Position numbers and translations under genes: made by a program
Source of the DNA: Thermoflexus hugenholtzii JAD2
GTDB lineage: Bacteria > Chloroflexota > Anaerolineae > Thermoflexales > Thermoflexaceae
DNA: 64,000 nucleotides
Direction of reading: 5' to 3'
Assembly: GCF_900187885.1 (NCBI RefSeq)
Contig: NZ_FYEK01000075.1
Span: forward strand, 1 to 64,000
In this document: piece by piece, positions 10,260-23,331 of the stretch
Layout of the letters: every line of letters begins with the position of its first letter
Position numbering within the stretch: the first letter of the stretch is position 1
Notes under the pieces: model-generated
The model's database searches: none
What the model was told of the DNA's origin: nothing
What the model saw: only the letters and a program-made list of their open reading frames with translations

Positions 10260-10359
10260 GGCCTCGAACGTTCCGACGATGGCGGGCCCCGGCGAACATC
10301 GCGCATGGCCCCGGGGCCTCCGCTCTCCTCCATATCAATCCACCATCAGGAGGGAGGCG

Positions 10360-10722
10360 ATGACGCACATCATCACCAGCCTGTGTTTGCGCGACGGTGC
10401 CTGCGCGCAGGTCTGCCCGGTCGAGTGCATCGTCCCCGGCAAGCCGGAGGATCAGTGGCCCTGGTATTACATCGACCCCGACACCTGCATCGACTGCGGC
10501 GCCTGCGTCCCCGAGTGCCCCTACGAGGCCATCTTCCCCGAAGACGAGGTCCCGGAGGCCTACACGATGAAGCCGGGCCAGGTGCGCATGATCATGCGCG
10601 CGCCGGGGGACATCGAGCGCTACGAGGCCCAGGGCGGCGAGGTGGTCAACCTCCGGGAGGACATCCCCTTCAACTACAAGTTCTACAAGGAGGGCCCGGG
10701 CTACAACGCCCGCAATATGTGA
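10360..10722 (+). CDS. seven/eight-iron ferredoxin-like protein
   Basis: A 120-residue soluble electron carrier. The second cluster motif is classical: Cys43-x2-Cys46-x2-Cys49-x3-Cys53-Pro. The first has Cys9, Cys15, Cys19-Pro and Cys23, the arrangement of FdxA-type ferredoxins holding a 3Fe-4S or 4Fe-4S cluster. A C-terminal extension of about 65 residues (MKPGQVRMIMRAPGDIERYEA) is longer than in minimal ferredoxins. The ribosome binding site AGGAGGGAGG decides the start. It has its own promoter and stands alone, so its redox partner cannot be named. Confidence 0.85.
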   Translation: MTHIITSLCLRDGACAQVCPVECIVPGKPEDQWPWYYIDPDTCIDCGACVPECPYEAIFPEDEVPEAYTMKPGQVRMIMRAPGDIERYEAQGGEVVNLREDIPFNYKFYKEGPGYNARNM

Positions 10723-10838
10723 CCTCCCCTGCCCTCGCCCTCGTCCCGCCCGGCCCGGGCTGGGCCCGACGGCTCGCCCGGGCCGGGCGGCGCCCGCCCT
10801 CAGATGGGACAGGATTCGCGAGAAGACGAGGTGAAAGC

Positions 10839-11963
10839 ATGGCGCGCCCACCGGTCGTCCAGCGCATCGAACTACACAGGTTCCGGGGGATCGAATCCGG
10901 AAGCGTCCCGCTGGCCCCCTTCACCGTGCTCCTCGGCCTGAACGGCAGCGGCAAAACAGCGGTCCTGGAGGCCCTGTATCTGGCCGCCAATCCTCGAGAA
11001 GGCGAACTGATCGTCGAGAATCAGGATCCCGTCGGTCGCTCTCCGTTGCGTCACGTCTTCCGGCGGCACGGATATCCGGCTCTGGAAACCGCCGATCTGG
11101 AGGGTCGGCTGGATTTGACTACCCAAAAGGAAAAGAAGGAAGAGGAAGGGGCCACGGGGATCTTCCACATCGCGCAGCTGGTCTTGAACCGCCCGCGCTG
11201 GTTGAACTACCGATCCGCGAACTCTTCGGAGATCCGCCTGATCTCGCCCCACACAGAGATGACCCGTAGCCGCTGGGAGCAGATGCTCCGGGCTGCGTTG
11301 ATGGATCCGGAAACCGGCGAGGAGGTCGAACAGCACCTTTGGTTCGGCGAAGATGGAGCGCCCCCGATCTTCGAAGCGGGGCGGGATCGCTGGATCGCCG
11401 ACCGGCTGAGGGAGATCTACGCCCTGAACCCCCTTCGGCTCTCCGGTGGGAAAGGCGGAGGCCCAGGGGAAACCACGGTGTGGGCGATCTTTGAACACGG
11501 ATCCGCCGTCCCCATCCCCGGGATGGGAGATGGGATCCAAGCCGCGTTCCGGGCGCTGTGCATGCTGGCGATCCTCCCCGAGGGCCTGTTCCTCTGGGAC
11601 GAGCCGGAGGCCCATCAGCACGCGGACGCGATCCCCCGGCTGATGCAGGCCATGGTGGATACGCTGGCCGAGCGCGATGGCCTTCAGATCGTCCTGGCCA
11701 CCCAGAGCCTGGAAATCCTCAAGGCCCTGCGGGACATCTTCATGGAGCGGTCGGATCAAGAGGTCTTCTCCATGGTCTTCCTGCGCCGGGACGAGCGAAC
11801 CGGCAAGCTGGAAAGTCCCTCTTTCTCGCTGGAGGATCTGGACCTTATGCTTCAAACTGACCGGGATCCTCGCACGCTGCTCTTCGGCCGTCAGACCCCC
11901 GAGCGCCTCGGGATCTCCGATGAGGCCCTCCAAGAGATCCTGAAGCTCTTTCCGCATCGTTGA
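10839..11963 (+). CDS. AAA-family ATPase (RecF/OLD-like) upstream of the csm operon
   Basis: A 374-residue P-loop ATPase. Residues 9-20 (RIELHRFRGIES) and the Walker A GLNGSGKT (33-40) are typical of SMC/RecF/OLD-like AAA proteins. Walker B is LFLWDEPEAHQH near residue 250, followed by the LATQSLEILKAL (His-loop/D-loop) region. The C-terminus has no TOPRIM or HNH motif that I can see, so it is an ATPase without an attached nuclease. The start codon follows GACGAGGTGAAAGC. It lies about 300 bases upstream of csm1 on the same strand and may be an accessory of the CRISPR locus or an unrelated defence-type gene. Confidence 0.75.
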   Translation: MARPPVVQRIELHRFRGIESGSVPLAPFTVLLGLNGSGKTAVLEALYLAANPREGELIVENQDPVGRSPLRHVFRRHGYPALETADLEGRLDLTTQKEKKEEEGATGIFHIAQLVLNRPRWLNYRSANSSEIRLISPHTEMTRSRWEQMLRAALMDPETGEEVEQHLWFGEDGAPPIFEAGRDRWIADRLREIYALNPLRLSGGKGGGPGETTVWAIFEHGSAVPIPGMGDGIQAAFRALCMLAILPEGLFLWDEPEAHQHADAIPRLMQAMVDTLAERDGLQIVLATQSLEILKALRDIFMERSDQEVFSMVFLRRDERTGKLESPSFSLEDLDLMLQTDRDPRTLLFGRQTPERLGISDEALQEILKLFPHR

Positions 11964-12277: not shown

Positions 12278-14749
12278 ATGAGCGCGCCGGATCCCTTCTC
12301 CGCGGCCTTTCGAGGGCTCTGGTTGATCGCCGGGCTGGATCTGGAACCGGATCCGGAGACCGCCTCCCGGCTCCGCCTGGCCGAGGCGTTGAGCGCCGGA
12401 GCCCCGATGCCGGCCGACCGCCGACCCTCCGCCCTGATCTCGATCTTCCACGCGGTGGAGGGCGCCAGCGGCCCTCCGCGTGTGTATCCGCTCCTCCCCC
12501 TGAACCGCCAACGCGAAACCCTCTTCCCAAAAGAAGCAACGCCGGAGGATCCTCCGGAGCTTGCCCTTCGCAACCTGGAGGACGACCTCAAAAAGCGCTT
12601 AGAGGAAGCCCTCCGGGACGCCCGGGAACATCCGCCTGCCCGGGTGGCCGGCGCCATGGGCGCTCTGGCCCGATTCGCGTGGTGCCTCCCCGGCCCCGCG
12701 CCGGATATCTCCCTCTACGATCACGGCCGCACCGTGGGGGCCTTTATGGCCCTGCTCGCCGAGGCCCCCCCGGAGGGCCTGGCGCCGTGGGAAGCAGCCC
12801 TGCAGGCCGGATCCGAGGCACCGGTTGACACGCCGCCGGTGGCCCTCCTGGTGAAGGGAGATGTCTCCGGCATTCAGCGCTTCCTCTACCAGGTGACGGG
12901 GAAGGGCGCGGCCCGCGGGCTGCGGGGCCGCTCGCTCTACCTGCAGCTGCTCAGCGAAGCGGTGGCCCTCTTCGTCCTGCGCCAGCTCCGTCTGCCCCTC
13001 ACCAACCTGCTGTACAGCGGAGGGGGACATTTCCTCCTGCTGGCCCGTCCCTCGGATGAGACGAGATTGCCGGAGATCCGCCGGGAGGTCACCCGACGCC
13101 TGGCCGCCTTCCACGGCCCCTCCCTCGCCCTGGTCCTGGCCGCTGTCCCGATCCGCCCCCACGAGCTGCACGGCGAAGGCCTGCAACAGGCCTTCGAGGC
13201 CCTCCACCGCCGCCTCGCCCAGGCCAAAGCCCGCCGCCTGGAAAGCCTCCCCCCGGAGGATTGGGAGGCCTTCCTGGTCGGGGAGCAGCCGGATTCCTCC
13301 CAGCGGTCTGAAAACCCGGCGGATCACGCCGAGAAGTGGACGGATTGCATGGTGTGCGGGATCCGAGGGTTCAAGGGCGAGGAGATCGTGGTCGAGAGGG
13401 AGGGCCGCAGCAAATGCAAGCGGTGTCGATCCCTCGAAGACCTGGGGCGTGCGGCCGTGGATCTGCAGGCCATCGCCTGGATCGAGCGGGAGCCCCTCTC
13501 CCTGCCCGACCGGCCGGAGCGGGCCGCCCCGTGGGAGAAGGCGTTGCAAGCCTTCGGCTTCGCCGTCTCCCTGTTCCGCGCCTCCGGGCCCAAGCCCTCC
13601 CCGGAGCCTCCGGAGGCAGGCTGGGCGCTGGTCTGGCTGGTAGAGGATAGTCCCGATCTCCGAGGGCGCATCCGCCGGGCCCTCGGGGAGCGGCCCATCG
13701 CCTTCTTCCCCCACTTCCTCCTGCGCCGCGCGCCTCGGGTGCGGCCCGAAGACCCGGAGCGCTTCCTCCGCTGCTACGACGATCCCGACGAGATGCCCGA
13801 AGTCGGCGACGTGCGGGACTTCACCATGCTGCAGCATTCCTCCCGGGGCATCCAGCGCCTGGGGGTGCTGCGGGCCGATCTCGACGGAGCCGGCGCGCTG
13901 TTCAGCCGGGGCCTGGGGAAGGCCATGCGCCTGGCCCGTCTGATGGCCCTCAGCAGCGCCCTCTCCCGCTTCTTCGAAGGCTACGTGGAAACCCTCTGCG
14001 AGACCGTCGAGCGAGAGACCGGGCGCCCGGACACGCTCTACGCTGTCTACGCAGGGGGAGATGACCTCTTCATCGTGGGGGCCTGGGATGTGGTGGCCGA
14101 TTTCGCCGCCCGTCTGCGCAGGGAGCTGGCGGAATACACCGGCCATCACCCCCGCCTCACCCTCAGCGCCGCCCTCACCCTCCACGACGGCCGGGAGGCC
14201 GTTCACCTCTTCGCTGAGGAGGCCGGCCGCGCCCTGGAGGAGGGCGCCAAAGCGTATCAACGCCCCGATGGGAAAGCCAAGGACGCCCTGCGCTTCCTCG
14301 AGCGGACCCTCCCCTGGGGCCCTGAAGAGGCCTTCTGGACGGTCCTCGAGTGGTCGGAACGGTTCCGCCAGGGGGTGGAGCGCGCCGCCGCCCGCCCTCG
14401 GCCGGGCCGGGGCCGAGGCCTGCTCTTCGCCCTCATCCGCTGGGGCACGCGTCCGCAACGGGCCCGCCCGGCGCTTCGAAAGGGACCCGGGCAGCCCATC
14501 CTGGTGCCTTGGATCTGGCACGCCGCCTACTTCATCCGCCGCTGGCAGGACCTCACCCCGGCCGAAGATCCGCTCCGGGAGATCCTGGACGCGATGCGCC
14601 GGGAGTGGGACCGGTGGGACGAGCAGGGGGGGCCGATCGCCCTCAGCCGCCTCCTTACGGAGATCTGGACGCCCGCCGCCCGCTGGGCGGAGCTGCGGAC
14701 CCGCCACGAGGAGGGATGCGCCCGCCAACCATCCGCCGATTCCGTTTGA
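12278..14749 (+). CDS. csm1: type III-A CRISPR Cas10/Csm1 with intact GGDD but no HD motif
   Basis: An 823-residue Cas10 of the Csm1 type. The first Palm domain begins VKGDVSGIQRFLYQVTGKG (about residue 190). A zinc finger CMVC...CKRC lies near 360-390. The second Palm carries YAGGDDLF with GGDD at residues 593-596, the cyclic-oligoadenylate synthase motif. The N-terminus retains the downstream part of the HD-type domain (LAEALSAG..., ISLYDHGRTVGAFMALL) but lacks the catalytic HDIGK-type segment. The target-activated DNase is therefore probably absent. The start is uncertain because AGGAG lies about 12 bases upstream. First gene of csm1-5. Confidence 0.93.
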   Translation: MSAPDPFSAAFRGLWLIAGLDLEPDPETASRLRLAEALSAGAPMPADRRPSALISIFHAVEGASGPPRVYPLLPLNRQRETLFPKEATPEDPPELALRNLEDDLKKRLEEALRDAREHPPARVAGAMGALARFAWCLPGPAPDISLYDHGRTVGAFMALLAEAPPEGLAPWEAALQAGSEAPVDTPPVALLVKGDVSGIQRFLYQVTGKGAARGLRGRSLYLQLLSEAVALFVLRQLRLPLTNLLYSGGGHFLLLARPSDETRLPEIRREVTRRLAAFHGPSLALVLAAVPIRPHELHGEGLQQAFEALHRRLAQAKARRLESLPPEDWEAFLVGEQPDSSQRSENPADHAEKWTDCMVCGIRGFKGEEIVVEREGRSKCKRCRSLEDLGRAAVDLQAIAWIEREPLSLPDRPERAAPWEKALQAFGFAVSLFRASGPKPSPEPPEAGWALVWLVEDSPDLRGRIRRALGERPIAFFPHFLLRRAPRVRPEDPERFLRCYDDPDEMPEVGDVRDFTMLQHSSRGIQRLGVLRADLDGAGALFSRGLGKAMRLARLMALSSALSRFFEGYVETLCETVERETGRPDTLYAVYAGGDDLFIVGAWDVVADFAARLRRELAEYTGHHPRLTLSAALTLHDGREAVHLFAEEAGRALEEGAKAYQRPDGKAKDALRFLERTLPWGPEEAFWTVLEWSERFRQGVERAAARPRPGRGRGLLFALIRWGTRPQRARPALRKGPGQPILVPWIWHAAYFIRRWQDLTPAEDPLREILDAMRREWDRWDEQGGPIALSRLLTEIWTPAARWAELRTRHEEGCARQPSADSV

Positions 14750-14760
14750 GGAGGGAAGCG

Positions 14761-15186
14761 ATGGCCGGGACAGCGGAATTCAACCTCCAGGACATCGACC
14801 GGATCATCACCCAGGAGGATGCCGCAGAGCTGCTGGTGAAGGTCAGCCAGGCCCTCGGACGGGAGCTGGCCCGACGCAAACTGACCACCCACCAGCTCCG
14901 CAACCTCTTCGGCGAGATCCGCCGCATCGAGAAGGAGTGGCAACAACGGCAGGGCCAGGGCGACAAACTGGACCCGACGACCTGGCGGCGCCTGCAGCTG
15001 CTGAAGCCCCGCATGGCCCATCAGGCCGCCCGCCTGCAGGATCGGGGCCACGCCATGCAGCCGCTCATCGAGGTCATGGAGCGCGCCATCGACCGCATCG
15101 AGCAGGATCCGGAGCGCTTCCGACGGTTCGTGGACTTCTTCGAAGCCATCGTGGCCTATCACCGCTTCTATCAGGAGAAACGCTGA
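14761..15186 (+). CDS. csm2: type III-A small subunit Csm2
   Basis: A 141-residue, almost entirely helical protein (LTTHQLRNLFGEIRRIEKEW, LKPRMAHQAARLQ), matching Csm2, the small subunit that lines the groove of the Csm effector filament. It starts 12 bases after the csm1 stop, behind GAGGAGGG. Length is close to the usual 120-150. Confidence 0.92.
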   Translation: MAGTAEFNLQDIDRIITQEDAAELLVKVSQALGRELARRKLTTHQLRNLFGEIRRIEKEWQQRQGQGDKLDPTTWRRLQLLKPRMAHQAARLQDRGHAMQPLIEVMERAIDRIEQDPERFRRFVDFFEAIVAYHRFYQEKR

Positions 15187-15220
15187 GAAACCCGGGACCC
15201 TCTCCCAACAGGAGGCGAAG

Positions 15221-16060
15221 ATGCCTACGGAACTCCGGTTGCGAGGGCGCCTGTTCCTGGACGCCGAGATCCACGTGCTCACCGGGTTGCACATCGGCGG
15301 GGCCGGCGGCAAGGTGGCCATCGGCGGCGTCGACAGCCCGGTGATCCGCGACCCGATCACCGACGAGCCCATCCTCCCCGGCTCCTCCCTCAAGGGCAAG
15401 ATGCGCAGCCTGCTGGAGCGCTGGGGCGGATATGAGCCCAATCATGCCATCGGCCAGGCCCGCATCCACGTCTGCAAGACCGAGGAGCGCTACCGGAACT
15501 GCCCGGTATGCCACATCTTCGGAGTCCCCGGGGAGATCTCCTTCGCCTACCCCACCCGTCTGGTGGTCCGCGACGCCTTCCTCACCGATGGGAGCCGGGA
15601 GGTCCTGCGCCGCGCAGACACCGACCTGCCCTTCACAGAGGTGAAATGGGAGGCGGCCATCGACCGCGTCACCTCCGCCGCCGTCCCCCGCCAGATCGAA
15701 CGCGTGCCCGCCGGCGCCGTGTTCCGGGCCCCCCGCATCCGCGCGTCGGATGCCTCAGACGAAGCCCACGGCGCCCTCATGGTCTACCACATCTACTTCC
15801 CCCAAGACCTGGAGTGGTTTGACCACGTGGTGGAGGCGATGGGGCTGGTGGAGGACGATTACCTGGGCGGCTACGGATCCCGGGGCAGCGGCCAGGTGGC
15901 CTTCCGCCGCCTGCGGCTGGGCCACAAGATCGCCTCCCCGAGGACGCCCTATCCCGAGGACATCACCTGGCTCGGGGATCCCAGCCCCGACCTGACGGAG
16001 TTCCGTCGACAGCTGCCCGAGCTGCTGGGTCAGATCCGGCCGCTTCTCTCCTCAGGCTGA
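15221..16060 (+). CDS. csm3: type III-A backbone RNase Csm3
   Basis: A 279-residue RAMP protein. GLHIGGAGGKVAIGGVDSPVI contains Asp38, which corresponds to the catalytic Asp that cuts bound target RNA every six nucleotides in Csm3. DPITDEPILPGSSLKGKMR is the glycine-rich RAMP signature. A zinc-type C...CPVC segment follows near residues 86-98. All key residues are present, so target-RNA cleavage should be intact. The ribosome binding site is AACAGGAGGCGAAG. Confidence 0.95.
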   Translation: MPTELRLRGRLFLDAEIHVLTGLHIGGAGGKVAIGGVDSPVIRDPITDEPILPGSSLKGKMRSLLERWGGYEPNHAIGQARIHVCKTEERYRNCPVCHIFGVPGEISFAYPTRLVVRDAFLTDGSREVLRRADTDLPFTEVKWEAAIDRVTSAAVPRQIERVPAGAVFRAPRIRASDASDEAHGALMVYHIYFPQDLEWFDHVVEAMGLVEDDYLGGYGSRGSGQVAFRRLRLGHKIASPRTPYPEDITWLGDPSPDLTEFRRQLPELLGQIRPLLSSG

Positions 16061-16081
16061 CGGCGGCGGGGAGGACGCCCG

Positions 16082-17188
16082 ATGGCCATGGCGATCCGTC
16101 AGGTGACGTTCTATCGCCTGCGGCCGCTCTCCCGCTTCTTCCGGGTCGGTGATCCCTTCGGGGGGGAGAGCGTCCGGGAGTTCATCCCCTCCGACACCCT
16201 GTTCGCGGCGATGGTGGCCCTGATCGCCGAGCGGGGCGGGCCTGACGCCGCCCGGGCCTTCGTCCAGCCCTTCGCCGAACCGGAGCCGGGGGGACCGCCG
16301 TTCCTGCTCACCGGCGTCTTCCCCGCCCTGGTCCCAACGGACGGGCCAGCCCTCCGCTTCTTTCCCCGTCCAGAGAGCTGGGGTCTTCGGATGGAAGCCG
16401 AGGCCCGGCTGCGCCTGCGCGGGCTCCGCTGGCTCTCCGAGGGGCTCTTCCGTCTGGCCCTGGAAAACCGGGCGCCCCAAGAGGCGGATCTCCACCGCCT
16501 CCACGAGGGCCACGTGGGGATGTTAAAGGAAGAGTGGCGCGCGCTCCCCCAGCGCCTGCGTCGGCTCCTCCCGGAAGATCGCCCCCTCTGGGAGGTGGAG
16601 CGACGCCCGGCGGTGGCGGTGGACCGTTACGGGCGGGGGTCGGCTCTTTATCGGATCTCCGCTGTGCGCCTCCCGACCGACCTGCCGATGGGAGGCTGGA
16701 TCGCCATCGCCTGGAATTCCGGAGCGGACGGACCCGCCGGGTCCGGGCGGAGGTGGCAGGAGTGGGCGGAGGAGGTCCTTCGGGAGCTGGGCGAGGGCGG
16801 CCTGGGGGGCTTGCGATCAAGGGGAGGAGGGGCCTTCCAGATCGAGCCGGACCCGGGAGGGGAGCTCCCGGTGGGGAGCGGGCCCGCGGTGGTTTCCCTG
16901 GCGCGATACCTCCCCGCTCCAGAAGAGCTACAGGCCGGGGCCTTAGAAGGGGATCCGGCGGCCTACACCCTGGTGGAGGTGGGCGGGTGGATGCGGACCC
17001 CCGGCCTCGGCCCGGATCGGCCGCGGCGGACGGTGACGCTGCTGGAGGCGGGGGCGGTGATCCGGGCGGGCGGCCGCCTCCCTCTGGGGCGGGTGGTCGA
17101 CGTCCGGCCGCCGGGCGCCCCGCACCCCTCGTGGCGTTACGGCCTGGCCTTCCCCATCCCCCTGGACGCCACAGCATGGGAGGCATAG
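16082..17188 (+). CDS. csm4: type III-A Csm4 (Cas5-like RAMP)
   Basis: A 368-residue RAMP protein. The N-terminal FYRLRPLSRFFRVG and FIPSDTLFAAMVALIA match Csm4, which binds the crRNA 5-prime handle and contacts Csm1. A glycine-rich segment GGLGGLRSRGGGAFQIE lies near residue 240. It follows csm3 by 21 bases and is separated by a single base from the csm5 start, consistent with translational coupling. A second in-frame ATG two codons later is an alternative start. Confidence 0.93.
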   Translation: MAMAIRQVTFYRLRPLSRFFRVGDPFGGESVREFIPSDTLFAAMVALIAERGGPDAARAFVQPFAEPEPGGPPFLLTGVFPALVPTDGPALRFFPRPESWGLRMEAEARLRLRGLRWLSEGLFRLALENRAPQEADLHRLHEGHVGMLKEEWRALPQRLRRLLPEDRPLWEVERRPAVAVDRYGRGSALYRISAVRLPTDLPMGGWIAIAWNSGADGPAGSGRRWQEWAEEVLRELGEGGLGGLRSRGGGAFQIEPDPGGELPVGSGPAVVSLARYLPAPEELQAGALEGDPAAYTLVEVGGWMRTPGLGPDRPRRTVTLLEAGAVIRAGGRLPLGRVVDVRPPGAPHPSWRYGLAFPIPLDATAWEA

Positions 17189-17189
17189 G

Positions 17190-18266
17190 ATGATCCGATA
17201 CCGGATGATCCTCCACACCCTGAGCGAAGTCCATATCGGGGACGGGCAGACGCTGCGGCGGGAATACGACTTCGCCATCCATGAGGGGCGGTTCTATCGC
17301 CTGAGCCTGTCGCGCCTGCTCGAGGGCTACGCGGCAGCGGATCTTCCGCGGGAATTGCTGGAACGTTTGATGCGGCTGCCGCCGGGGCGCTGGCTGAGCC
17401 CCGAGGACTTCCGCCGGAAGGAGTGGTTCCCCTATGTGCTGGAGGGGGATCCGAAAGTGGGGATCGTGCGGTCCTTCATCAAGGACGTGCACGGCCGACC
17501 GTATCTACCGGGGAGCAGCCTCAAGGGGGCGCTGCGGACGGCGATCCTGTGGCGGATGTGGCGGGAGCGAAGGGAGCCCATTGGGTTACGGCAGTTGGAT
17601 CGGCAACGGGAGTGGGCGGCCCGGCCGCTGGAGCGGCGGTGGCTGGGGTCGGATCCCAACCACGATCTACTGCGGACGTTGCGGCCGAGGGACACGGGGC
17701 CTTTGCCGCCGGAGGAGGCGCTGGTGATCGTGCGGGCGGTCGTCCAGGTCGGCCCGCGTCAGGCAGCTCCCATGGCCCTGGAGGCCCTGCGGCCTGGGGT
17801 GACGCTGAGGGGATCCCTGGTGGTGGACGAGCGGTTGCTGGCTATGGGGGCGGCGGAGCTGGGATGGGCGGGCAAGGAGCGGTATGTGCGAGGGCTGGCG
17901 GCCGTGGCCCGGGACTTCGCCCTGGATCGGGTGCGGAAGGAGGCCGCGTGGGCGCGGGCGGCCGGGCTGACGGCCCTGGAGGCGTTTTACGGGGATCTGG
18001 AGCGGCGGCTGCGGCGGATGCGGGAGGAGAAGGCGGACGCCTTTCTGCTTCGGGTGGGGTGGGGCGGCGGCTGGGAGAGCAAGACCCTGGGGCGGGAGCC
18101 TTTCGCGGAGGAGTTGGAGGAGCTGTTGCGACGCTATATCCGGCCGAAGGGCCGGCGCCAGCCCGGGGATCCGTTCCCGCGGAGCCGACGGGTGGTGGTG
18201 GACGAGCGGGATCGCCCCATTCGGCCCTTCGGCTGGGTGGAGGTCCGCCTGGAGCGGGAGTCCTGA
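17190..18266 (+). CDS. csm5: type III-A Csm5 (RAMP)
   Basis: A 358-residue RAMP protein with HTLSEVHIGDG at the N-terminus and FIKDVHGRPYLPGSSLKGALRTAI, the Csm5 form of the RAMP motif. Csm5 caps the filament at the crRNA 3-prime end and aids crRNA maturation by host nucleases. It is the last csm gene here. About 350 bases of leader DNA separate it from the CRISPR array, so the operon and array point the same way. No csm6 or cas6 follows. Confidence 0.93.
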   Translation: MIRYRMILHTLSEVHIGDGQTLRREYDFAIHEGRFYRLSLSRLLEGYAAADLPRELLERLMRLPPGRWLSPEDFRRKEWFPYVLEGDPKVGIVRSFIKDVHGRPYLPGSSLKGALRTAILWRMWRERREPIGLRQLDRQREWAARPLERRWLGSDPNHDLLRTLRPRDTGPLPPEEALVIVRAVVQVGPRQAAPMALEALRPGVTLRGSLVVDERLLAMGAAELGWAGKERYVRGLAAVARDFALDRVRKEAAWARAAGLTALEAFYGDLERRLRRMREEKADAFLLRVGWGGGWESKTLGREPFAEELEELLRRYIRPKGRRQPGDPFPRSRRVVVDERDRPIRPFGWVEVRLERES

Positions 18267-18621
18267 CCGATGCTGATCGGCCTGATCCTTTCGTTCACTC
18301 CGCTCAAAAATCGTCCGCGGACCCCCATGGGAAATCCGGCGATCGGGGGTCTGCGGAAGGGTCGTCCAATGACGCGTAGCATGGCGATGGAACCCTCGAT
18401 CTTCGATCCATCCGATACAAAGAAGATCGCCTTTTAGGGATGTAGAACGTGCCAATCAGCGGGGGATCGGACAAGACTTCCGCGGACCCCCGATGGTGGG
18501 ATAGACTGGAAAGGGTGAAGTGGCCGTCGAAACCGACCGATGTTCGCACCCAACGATCCCCGTCCCTTTCAACGTCCCCGCCCAGACTTGACAAAAGTCC
18601 CCTATCCCGTGGTATAATAGG
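18267..18621 (+). other. CRISPR leader region with repeated CCGCGGACCCCC motif
   Basis: A non-coding stretch between csm5 and the array. The 12-base motif CCGCGGACCCCC occurs at 18315-18326 and 18481-18492, and in inverted form with one mismatch at 18345-18356. The last 35 bases hold the array promoter. Nothing else recognisable is seen. Confidence 0.6.
18588..18618 (+). promoter_or_regulatory. CRISPR array promoter abutting the first repeat
   Basis: A perfect TTGACA (18588-18593) and a perfect TATAAT (18613-18618) are separated by 19 bases. The first repeat begins at 18622, so a start site about seven bases after the -10 element would fall inside the first repeat. Confidence 0.75.
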
Positions 18622-21600
18622 GAAGCAGGAACGCCGTGGTGGCATTGAAACCATGCTCCTCAAGCCCCAGAGATAAGAGCTCCACGTGGGAAGCAGGAAC
18701 GCCGTGGTGGCATTGAAACGTGGATTCGAATGGGGCTATGGGGGTAGTGGGCCCGCGAAGCAGGAACGCCGTGGTGGCATTGAAACGGGAGAGATCCTGG
18801 CAGGGAAAGGAAGCCCAAGCCAGGAAGCAGGAACGCCGTGGTGGCATTGAAACGCGATCCACAACCGCTGTCCGGGGTGGATGTCCAGGAAGCAGGAACG
18901 CCGTGGTGGCATTGAAACATTTTTTCAGGAGCGCGGCGGCGTATTCTTCCGCAAGGAAGCAGGAACGCCGTGGTGGCATTGAAACGCCTCCGTTTTCAAG
19001 GAGGGTGTATGCTGGCGCGGCGAAGCAGGAACGCCGTGGTGGCATTGAAACCCTCCTTTTTTGGGTTTTGCCCGGCCTCCCCGGCCGGGGAAGCAGGAAC
19101 GCCGTGGTGGCATTGAAACCGTGGGGATCTCCACGCCCGCGATCTCGATGCGCTCCTGAAGCAGGAACGCCGTGGTGGCATTGAAACGACTCTGGAAAAG
19201 CGCAACCCCAGCCGACTCCGACCGAAGCAGGAACGCCGTGGTGGCATTGAAACAACTGCGGCCGCCAGGATCCCGAAGACGACGGCCTCGAAGCAGGAAC
19301 GCCGTGGTGGCATTGAAACTCGAAGATGTAATAATATGCGTGCGGGGCGCCATAGCGGAAGCAGGAACGCCGTGGTGGCATTGAAACACAGATCCTGCAG
19401 CCGCCGCAGGATCCGGCTGGCGGGGAAGCAGGAACGCCGTGGTGGCATTGAAACCTGGTCGTGGTGGAGAATGTCGCCGGCCTGCTGAAGGAAGCAGGAA
19501 CGCCGTGGTGGCATTGAAACCAAGAAGTTCTCCCGAACCCACCCTTCCTCTTCCCTGAAGCAGGAACGCCGTGGTGGCATTGAAACGTCTTCTGGGTCGA
19601 GTTCCCACTCGATATGAACAAGAAGCAGGAACGCCGTGGTGGCATTGAAACCATAGAAGAAACCTCCGGTTGGTAGCCAACACGTGGGAAGCAGGAACGC
19701 CGTGGTGGCATTGAAACCACGCTCTTGATGGCGGCGGAGGAGGCGGCCCTCTGGAAGCAGGAACGCCGTGGTGGCATTGAAACGGAGGATTAAAGACAGA
19801 GACTTTCTCCCATCCTGAGTGAAGCAGGAACGCCGTGGTGGCATTGAAACCAAAGCTCAGGAAAGCCACCGCATCCCACGGGATGCGAAGCAGGAACGCC
19901 GTGGTGGCATTGAAACTATCCTGTTCAGGAGGTGGAAGCGGAAATGGAAACGAGAAGCAGGAACGCCGTGGTGGCATTGAAACCTTTTTATCACCAAAAT
20001 CTTTTTGTTTTCGATCACTAGGAAGCAGGAACGCCGTGGTGGCATTGAAACGGTTGTAGATGTAGAGCGCCATATCCGCCATGCTCGCGAAGCAGGAACG
20101 CCGTGGTGGCATTGAAACACAACTTGGAAATCATCATCATTGGGCTTGAAGATCGAAGCAGGAACGCCGTGGTGGCATTGAAACCAGATCTCGATGCTCC
20201 CCTCGGAGTTGGAGACATAAGAAGCAGGAACGCCGTGGTGGCATTGAAACACCAGGTCCATCATTTGGGCTTCCTGTGGCTGGACGGGAAGCAGGAACGC
20301 CGTGGTGGCATTGAAACTATGCCACTCTCCCCCAGGTTGCGGTGGGCTCAATCCAGAAGCAGGAACGCCGTGGTGGCATTGAAACAAGGATGGAGGCCAT
20401 CATGCCTCCGCCTCCTCGGCTCCGAAGCAGGAACGCCGTGGTGGCATTGAAACATTGGGCTCCGGAGGACCACGATGGCAGCCTCATCCGAAGCAGGAAC
20501 GCCGTGGTGGCATTGAAGCCAACGATGGGGCGGGAAATCGTGTTTTCCCGCACCTGAAGCAGGAACGCCGTGGTGGCATTGAAACGCGATCCAGGCAGCC
20601 CGCAGGCGGGACCGGACCTCCGAAGCAGGAACGCCGTGGTGGCATTGAAACCGAGAATCAAAATAGAGATGCCCTCGGGGGAAAGGCGAAGCAGGAACGC
20701 CGTGGTGGCATTGAAACGGTGCACGTGAGGCAGGCCAAAGGATGGAAATTGATCGAAGCAGGAACGCCGTGGTGGCATTGAAACTCGCGGCGGCGGCGAC
20801 GGTGGTGTAGAGATTAAAGATGAGAAGCAGGAACGCCGTGGTGGCATTGAAACGGCGGAGAAGATCCGGACGAGCCAGGGCCTCATGAACTGAGAAGCAG
20901 GAACGCCGTGGTGGCATTGAAACCTCAGATCGCATATCAGCGGGGAGGCCTTCGCGACCGAAGCAGGAACGCCGTGGTGGCATTGAAACGTAATACTCGT
21001 GGCCCTCTGGGGCAGAGGACTCATCGAAGCAGGAACGCCGTGGTGGCATTGAAACCCGGCCCGACCATTTCGGCCCCTTCGGGCCTCTTCAGGGAAGCAG
21101 GAACGCCGTGGTGGCATTGAAACAATTGCACGAGATCGTGGGGCGGCCTCCGGTCTGCCGCGAAGCAGGAACGCCGTGGTGGCATTGAAACACTCCTGGG
21201 GGCCCGAACAAAACGGCCCCAACGATTCGAAGCAGGAACGCCGTGGTGGCATTGAAACAGGAGGGTGGGCCACTCCCCCGGGCGGGAATTGAACGAAGCA
21301 GGAACGCCGTGGTGGCATTGAAACGGGCCCACCGGAGCTCCTCGTCCGGGATCTCGGGGACCGAAGCAGGAACGCCGTGGTGGCATTGAAACGGAGGTCA
21401 TCGGGCTGCTCACGGCGGACGGCGCCCAGAAGCAGGAACGCCGTGGTGGCATTGAAACTGGACTGCAGATCGCTGTGCGCGGACAGGATAGCCAGGAAGC
21501 AGGAACGCCGTGGTGGCATTGAAACTCTTCAGTCCCCTTTGGCCAGGATGTGCGAATTGAACGAAGCAGGAATGCCTTGGTGGCATTGAAACTCTTCCCC

Positions 21601-23331
21601 CACCACGCTGACCGCTGTGCTCTCCACAACGAAGCAGGAACGCCGTGGTGGCATTGAAACGGCCGCCGGGGTCTCCATCGTCCACCTCCTTCTTGTGGAA
21701 GCAGGAACGCCGTGGTGGCATTGAAACGGCGGCGAAGGGGGCATAGGGCTGCCCGCTCGGATCCCGAAGCAGGAACGCCGTGGTGGCATTGAAACGGCGA
21801 TGAGGTCGGTCATCGTGGCGCGCGGCATTGAGAAGCAGGAACGCCGTGGTGGCATTGAAACCGCGCTGCGTCGCGCTGGCCCGGGAAATCCGCTCCAGAA
21901 GCAGGAACGCCGTGGTGGCATTGAAACCTCGATTTCGGTGTTGTGCGCACGGACAAAACAAAAGAAAGCAGGAACGCCGTGGTGGCATTGAAACTCTGGA
22001 TACGCGCAGACGTGTATCAAGTTGCGCACGAAGCAGGAACGCCGTGGTGGCATTGAAACAAGAAGGAAAAATAGCTCTGCCGCATGGCCACCTCCGGAAA
22101 GCAGGAACGCCGTGGTGGCATTGAAACCGTCTCGGGATGGAAGAAGCGTCCTCCCTCGGCCCGCAAAGCAGGAACGCCGTGGTGGCATTGAAACTGCTTT
22201 CCTCCTTTTGGGGGATCTCCCGGAGGATCTCAAAGCAGGAACGCCGTGGTGGCATTGAAACAGAGGCGTTATCCGCGAGCCCTGTGTCCAGGCTGGCAAG
22301 CAGGAACGCCGTGGTGGCATTGAAACTAATGCCTCGGGAAATTGATCGGGCCACCAGGGACAGGAAGCAGGAACGCCGTGGTGGCATTGAAACCCAGATC
22401 GGAGTGCTGGAGCAGCCACTCCTCACCAGAAGCAGGAACGCCGTGGTGGCATTGAAACGGATCCAGATCCACCGTGGCCGAATCCACCGTGGGCAGAAGC
22501 AGGAACGCCGTGGTGGCATTGAAACTACGGAAAAGCCGAACAGACCAGCGCTCCAAGGGGGGAAGCAGGAACGCCGTGGTGGCATTGAAACACGGAGACC
22601 CGGATCTCCGAGAGATGTCCGTAAAGGGGAAGCAGGAACGCCGTGGTGGCATTGAAACTCCTTCACCAAGGCAACGCGCGTGCCATGCAACACGAAGCAG
22701 GAACGCCGTGGTGGCATTGAAACAGCAAATCGTTCGCTTGGAGCTTCTCCCATAGCTCCGAAGCAGGAACGCCGTGGTGGCATTGAAACGTGTTTGCCAA
22801 AACCAGAATGGCTATCCCCTCCGGAGCGAAAGCAGGAACGCCGTGGTGGCATTGAAACCGCAGCGTCTGGACATCATCGAGGCGGTGGTGTCCAGGAAAG
22901 CAGGAACGCCGTGGTGGCATTGAAACATCGCCTCGCTCGCCTCCGAGTCCGGGGCGAACGAAAGAAAGCAGGAACGCCGTGGTGGCATTGAAACTCCCAG
23001 GGGGAATCGAGCCAGGAGGATCTCGTCGCCGGAAAGCAGGAACGCCGTGGTGGCATTGAAACGGGTGATGGAGGGCCAGGAAGGCCCACCGGACCCCGGG
23101 AAGCAGGAACGCCGTGGTGGCATTGAAACCAGGGAGCGTAGATGTGCATCCCATAGGCGATCTCCGGAAGCAGGAACGCCGTGGTGGCATTGAAACAATC
23201 TCCAGGCGGGCTTGCCGCCGGGCCCGCTTCTTGGAAGCAGGAACGCCGTGGTGGCATTGAAACCGGATAGAGTCCTCTCCACCCCCCGAGCAACCGATCG
23301 GGAAGCAGGAACGCCGTGGTGGCATTGAAAC
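18622..23331 (+). CRISPR. CRISPR array, 71 repeats of 30 bases and 70 spacers
   Basis: I counted 71 copies of a 30-base repeat that begins GAAGCAGGAACGCC and ends GGTGGCATTGAAAC. Spacers are 35-40 bases, mostly 36-38. The 3-prime ATTGAAAC would form the 8-base crRNA handle, giving plus-strand transcription like csm1-5. Most repeats are identical. Exceptions are 20490 (ends GAAGC instead of GAAAC), 21563 (two internal changes) and copies whose first base is A (21965, 22098, 22165, 22232, 22829, 22897, 22965, 23033) or C (22297). The repeat is open in all three minus-strand frames, which creates long false ORFs there. Confidence 0.98.

Follow-up and report, generated by a model that had tools for sequence, protein, structure and literature searches.

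The CRISPR array that adjoins the csm operon of Thermoflexus hugenholtzii holds spacers whose complements can be read as ribosome binding sites followed by start codons, which raises the questions of whether its crRNAs are oriented to pair with phage mRNA, whether they are aimed at translation starts, and how such an orientation would come about. The reading we favor, with a probability of about 0.8, is that of a type III-A locus that borrows its spacer acquisition from elsewhere and in which antisense spacers have been kept by selection, so that about three quarters of them are antisense and no aiming at start codons is needed.

The csm operon and its array

The window, meaning the whole stretch of DNA analyzed, covers the initial 64 kb of contig C75 in the Thermoflexus genome and contains a type III-A CRISPR-Cas locus of the ordinary kind. 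The genes csm1 to csm5 (cas10/csm1, csm2, csm3, csm4 and csm5) lie together in one operon at 12278–18266, all recognized by NCBIfam models above their cut-offs, and the array, with the repeat GAAGCAGGAACGCCGTGGTGGCATTGAAAC, adjoins this operon, its first repeat lying 355 bases 3′ of csm5.

12278–14749, + strand: Cas10/Csm1 (TIGR02578, E=2.6e-119), with a GGDD motif in the translation and apparently without the N-terminal HD region
14761–15186, + strand: Csm2 (TIGR01870, 80.5 bits against a cut-off of 30.6), open frame checked
15221–16060, + strand: Csm3 (TIGR02582, E=3.7e-62)
16082–17188, + strand: Csm4 (TIGR01903, E=2.2e-30)
17190–18266, + strand: Csm5 (TIGR01899, E=7e-26)
18588–18618, + strand: promoter-like sequence TTGACA-N19-TATAAT, ending 3 bases 5′ of the first repeat
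18622–23331, + strand: CRISPR array with 71 repeats of 30 bases and 70 spacers of 35–40 bases

The palm GGDD motif of Cas10, which serves cyclic oligoadenylate synthesis, is present in the translation as VYAGGDDLFIVG. The HD nuclease region of this protein appears to be missing, with the TIGR02578 alignment beginning only at profile position 92 of 753. Such an N-terminal HD domain is often present but not universal in type III-A, so that its absence is no bar to membership, and cas1 and cas2 genes of the locus itself are likewise frequent in type III-A and not required. A second type III-A Cas10 in the same genome, on contig C27, matches the profile from position 5 and additionally matches cas3_HD; the genome has one Cas10 with HD and another, that of the csm operon, apparently without HD but with GGDD, and RNA signaling and DNA cleavage may be split between the two III-A systems. 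In total, the genome contains at least four CRISPR arrays (on contigs C3, C44, C27 and C75) with about 250 spacers; two of the kinds represented are III-A and one is I-B. The csm operon is immediately preceded, at 10305–11963, by an AAA ATPase that in part resembles AriA/OLD-like defense ATPases. A single near-copy of the array repeat, GGAGCAGGAACGCCGTGATGGCATTGAAAC, is found on contig C22 at about 81013–81042, directly downstream of a cas6 gene whose product may process the csm-locus array; the lone repeat itself may have a regulatory role or be a remnant.

The crRNAs are very probably transcribed along the + strand, because the repeat ends at its 3′ side in ATTGAAAC, the usual handle, because the promoter-like site directly precedes the first repeat, and because repeat variants are concentrated towards the far end of the array. 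The promoter-like site was not listed by a consensus promoter scan owing to its spacing of 19.

Possible translation starts among the spacers

The initial annotation had picked out three spacers whose complements read GGAGG, 5–8 bases and ATG, and proposed that some crRNAs would cover translation start regions. This reading of the letters is correct for spacers 16, 46 and 52 (N8, N6 and N5, respectively), and we observed the same motif in further spacers and on the forward strand:

19652–19687, − strand: spacer 16, complement ending in GGAGG-N8-ATG, apparently non-coding
21661–21697, − strand: spacer 46, complement with GGAGG-N6-ATG, possible read-through as HKKEVDDGDPGG
22060–22097, − strand: spacer 52, complement with GGAGG-N5-ATG, same-frame read-through as PEVAMRQSYFSF
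20386–20423, + strand: spacer 27, GGAGG-N5-8-ATG on both strands
20454–20489, + strand: spacer 28, forward strand with GGAGG-N6-ATG, contrary to the proposed rule

Across the 70 spacers, the motif occurs on four complements (16, 27, 46 and 52) versus two forward strands (27 and 28), and the forward strand of spacer 6 is a near miss (GGAGG-N4-ATG). The expected count per strand is about 0.35 from shuffles, 0.62 from host DNA and 0.27 from viral DNA contigs. Both strands taken together, the motif is above chance in this array; the split of four versus two is not a clear or significant strand bias, and the three quoted spacers are a selective sample, since forward-strand cases exist. Spacers 46 and 52 can be translated straight across the motif, with GAG GTN codons, and spacer 16, which looks non-coding, is the best candidate for a true leader-plus-start region.

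For comparison across the genus we used a replication set of 160 spacers from 12 other Thermoflexus type III arrays and a control set of 629 spacers from five Thermoflexus type I-B arrays, 151 of these spacers from the same genome; the 3′ end of the repeat served to orient the arrays of both sets. The control repeat was assigned to type I-B because in the relative G008 (contig C13) it lies beside type I-B cas3, cas5, cas7, cas4 and cas1; orthologues of these cas genes are located on contig C71 of the T. hugenholtzii genome, and no cas genes were recognized immediately upstream of the arrays on contigs C3 and C44.

These sets bear on the possibility that type III spacers are chosen or kept specifically at translation starts (ribosome binding site plus start codon), where the crRNA would hit exposed or early-made RNA or block translation, or where adaptation would be start-proximal. 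Type III spacers carry the motif in 14 cases out of 230 and I-B spacers in 17 out of 629 (Fisher p=0.023), with complement-to-forward ratios of 10:5 and 9:8, respectively; several convincing starts occur in other arrays, for example GGGAGGAATAAATG on contig C80 of the relative G001, and new type III-A spacers of S. thermophilus are enriched 10–50 bp downstream of start codons (review, PMC9048733). However, the motif was picked from the csm array itself, and p rises to 0.08 once that array is left out, in a remaining set whose spacers are longer; two of the three quoted cases can be read as internal codons, and the motif stands on forward strands too. We therefore regard the start-site enrichment in type III arrays as suggestive, and consider it unlikely, at about one chance in eight, that spacers were selected at starts as such; it is similarly doubtful that Thermoflexus type III arrays store phage ribosome binding site and start regions more often than I-B arrays facing the same phages, mostly in antisense. 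That ribosome binding sites or start codons are a special target is thus not supported, given a motif without significant strand bias and an excess over I-B that is weak and partly post hoc. Such a pattern, if true, would suggest that spacers are preferentially acquired or retained at translation starts.

Strand bias of type III spacers

The broader proposal, that + strand crRNAs pair with mRNA as a type III system needs, was addressed with a codon-usage model trained on genes of the window, which gave every spacer one score per strand. The model recovered the correct strand in 86% of 37-mers from held-out host genes and returned an estimate of 0.51 for simulated 50:50 strand mixtures. For the array, the maximum-likelihood antisense fraction is 0.735 (0.58–0.87) if all spacers are assumed to be coding and 0.81 (95% interval 0.63–0.95) when the model admits 15% non-coding spacers, with p=0.005 in a sign-flip test. 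A viral codon table derived from unrelated contigs gave the same direction more weakly (p=0.05 for the array alone, p=0.03 with close relatives). Confident calls comprise 26 antisense and 8 sense spacers among the 70, where strands are read from codon statistics rather than mapped protospacers and single calls are unreliable, because spacer 2 leaned antisense though its gene match is sense. The antisense bias of the array is a matter of tendency, with exceptions in the 8 confidently sense spacers and the sense match of spacer 2. The type III assignment (here III-A, with Csm1–5) and the antisense bias proposed in the initial annotation are both supported. All five further spacers whose complements had been named as translating sensibly (8, 22, 24, 34 and 36) have antisense posteriors of 0.94–0.99, and spacers 27 and 20 (19917–19953), described as ambiguous or better read forward, both lean sense. 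Codon statistics did not give the equal distribution over the two strands that had been named as speaking against the proposal.

The same tendency is seen across the genus. The antisense fraction is 0.74 (0.62–0.84) in the 160 spacers of the replication set, with every point estimate lying above 0.5, and 0.76 (0.67–0.84) in all 230 type III spacers, versus 0.55 (0.48–0.60), without significant bias, in the 629 I-B spacers; the C27-type and C71/C241-type arrays were oriented by the repeat 3′ end rather than by transcripts, and in C27-type arrays this criterion, itself independent of the scores, was applied after raw scores had been seen. All type III and all I-B spacers differ with p=0.0003, and the csm-locus array differs from the I-B arrays in the same genome with p=0.04 by likelihood ratio and p=0.10 by rank test. 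Statistically, then, Thermoflexus type III spacers are shown to be about three-quarters antisense, versus about half in I-B arrays. That there is no strand bias, the readable examples having been picked and the statistic reflecting chance or a composition artefact, could draw on the selected nature of the quoted ribosome binding site cases, on the forward-strand motifs in the array and on the borderline result with the viral codon table; it is very improbable in view of the independent replication in 160 spacers (LRT 15.2), the lack of significant bias when the same procedure is applied to the I-B spacers, and the balanced outcome of the simulations.

Searches for the sources of the spacers gave conserved-gene matches for two of them:

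18720–18756, + strand: spacer 2, forward strand encoding GFEWGYGGSGP, 88.6% identity over 35 bases to DUF6166 genes, sense
18787–18823, − strand: spacer 3, complement encoding LAWASFPCQDLS, 88.9% identity over 36 bases to DNA cytosine methyltransferase genes, antisense

None of the searches, which covered phage genomes, plasmids, IMG/VR (with selected spacers), relatives and 400 genomes of the phylum, yielded a protospacer matching a spacer over its full length. By blastn, all 70 spacers were without a match in phage genomes, and in plasmids yielded only the conserved-gene matches of spacers 2 and 3 and one weak match. In IMG/VR, neither exact 20–21-mers from spacers 46 and 16 nor degenerate peptide patterns for spacers 68, 11, 41 and 22 were found, and the DUF6166 pattern of spacer 2 retrieved 115 viral stretches, the best covering 32 bases at 94%, which we rejected as protospacers of spacer 2 and regard as conserved-motif relatives. 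The genomes of relatives and the 400 phylum genomes gave only near-chance matches and a further match in the region of spacer 3 (91% over 34 bases), and no terminase large-subunit or phage portal match was obtained in nine related genomes. Spacer 7 (19052–19089) and an I-B spacer on contig C3 (about 93778–93814) have in common an exact 20-base GC-rich inverted-repeat stretch, which suggests that the csm array and the C3 I-B array sampled the same hairpin-bearing element. The spacers show a weak hairpin enrichment that is not confined to type III.

Origin and meaning of the bias

Cas1 is absent from contig C75 and is encoded in the genome on contigs C27 and C71 only, and no reverse transcriptase domain (RVT_1) was found in this 97.7% complete genome; acquisition of spacers from RNA is therefore unlikely. 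Spacer lengths in the csm array and in the I-B arrays are the same (36.9 and 37.0, KS p=0.2), unlike those of the III-A array with its own Cas1 (42.3, KS p=4e-17), so that both array types are probably served by one acquisition machinery. The I-B system of the same genome (contig C71, with the arrays on C3 and C44) also resembles the csm array in its 30-base repeat and the 3′ end ATTGAAAC, and this agreement in spacer length, repeat length and 3′ end suggests that the I-B proteins work in trans; the two differ in that the I-B system relies on the DNA-targeting Cas3 and has no significant strand bias, whereas the csm array is biased. That a reverse transcriptase-Cas1 acquires the spacers from RNA and so fixes their antisense orientation, although such systems exist (PMC5576922), has next to no likelihood here, with no RVT_1 match, with Cas1 open frames of 333 and 432 codons that are too short for a fusion, and with only a moderate antisense preference even for RT-Cas1 in Marinomonas (PMC5576922).

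The likeliest cause of the bias is selection after borrowed acquisition. The adaptation proteins that insert the spacers would be encoded outside the locus, the co-resident type I-B Cas1-Cas2-Cas4 being the most likely ones. Since a Csm complex works only when its crRNA is paired with a transcript, spacers in chance antisense orientation to phage mRNA would be retained, and sense spacers would be lost over time. In the Csm family, Csm3 cleaves the target and Cas10 carries out cyclic-oligoadenylate signaling, and we predict the same roles for Csm3 and the GGDD-bearing Cas10 of this locus. Spacers over ribosome binding sites and start codons could then be a by-product of gene-dense phage genomes, with no separate aiming needed.

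The antisense tendency of Thermoflexus type III spacers is real and expected, a known regularity that agrees with published systems. Vink et al. (2021, PMC8482600) reported that coding-strand targeting averages 65% in type III and 55% in I-B, and found evidence for type I adaptation in trans in Cas1-less type III arrays; their type III-A systems share with the csm locus Csm1–5, an adjoining array, a bias towards pairing with mRNA and a Cas1-less state beside I-B, and their type III mean of 65% compares with about 75–80% here, a value that comes from codon statistics and not from mapped protospacers. Type III adaptation in Thermus is RT-free and its strand bias has been ascribed to selection (review, PMC9048733). 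As that review describes the work of Artamonova et al. (2020) on Thermus thermophilus and a virulent phage, the strand bias of an RT-free thermophile is explained there by selection for functional crRNAs, as proposed here, with the difference that the effect was seen directly after infection, whereas the Thermoflexus array is a natural one.

The codon-statistic approach makes strand bias measurable even where the phages of an array were never sequenced. In Thermoflexus, the two array types can be compared naturally in a single set of hosts: I-B spacers are about 55% and III-A spacers about 75–80% antisense, without any reverse transcriptase. This contrast makes post-acquisition selection a more likely source of the type III bias than directed acquisition.
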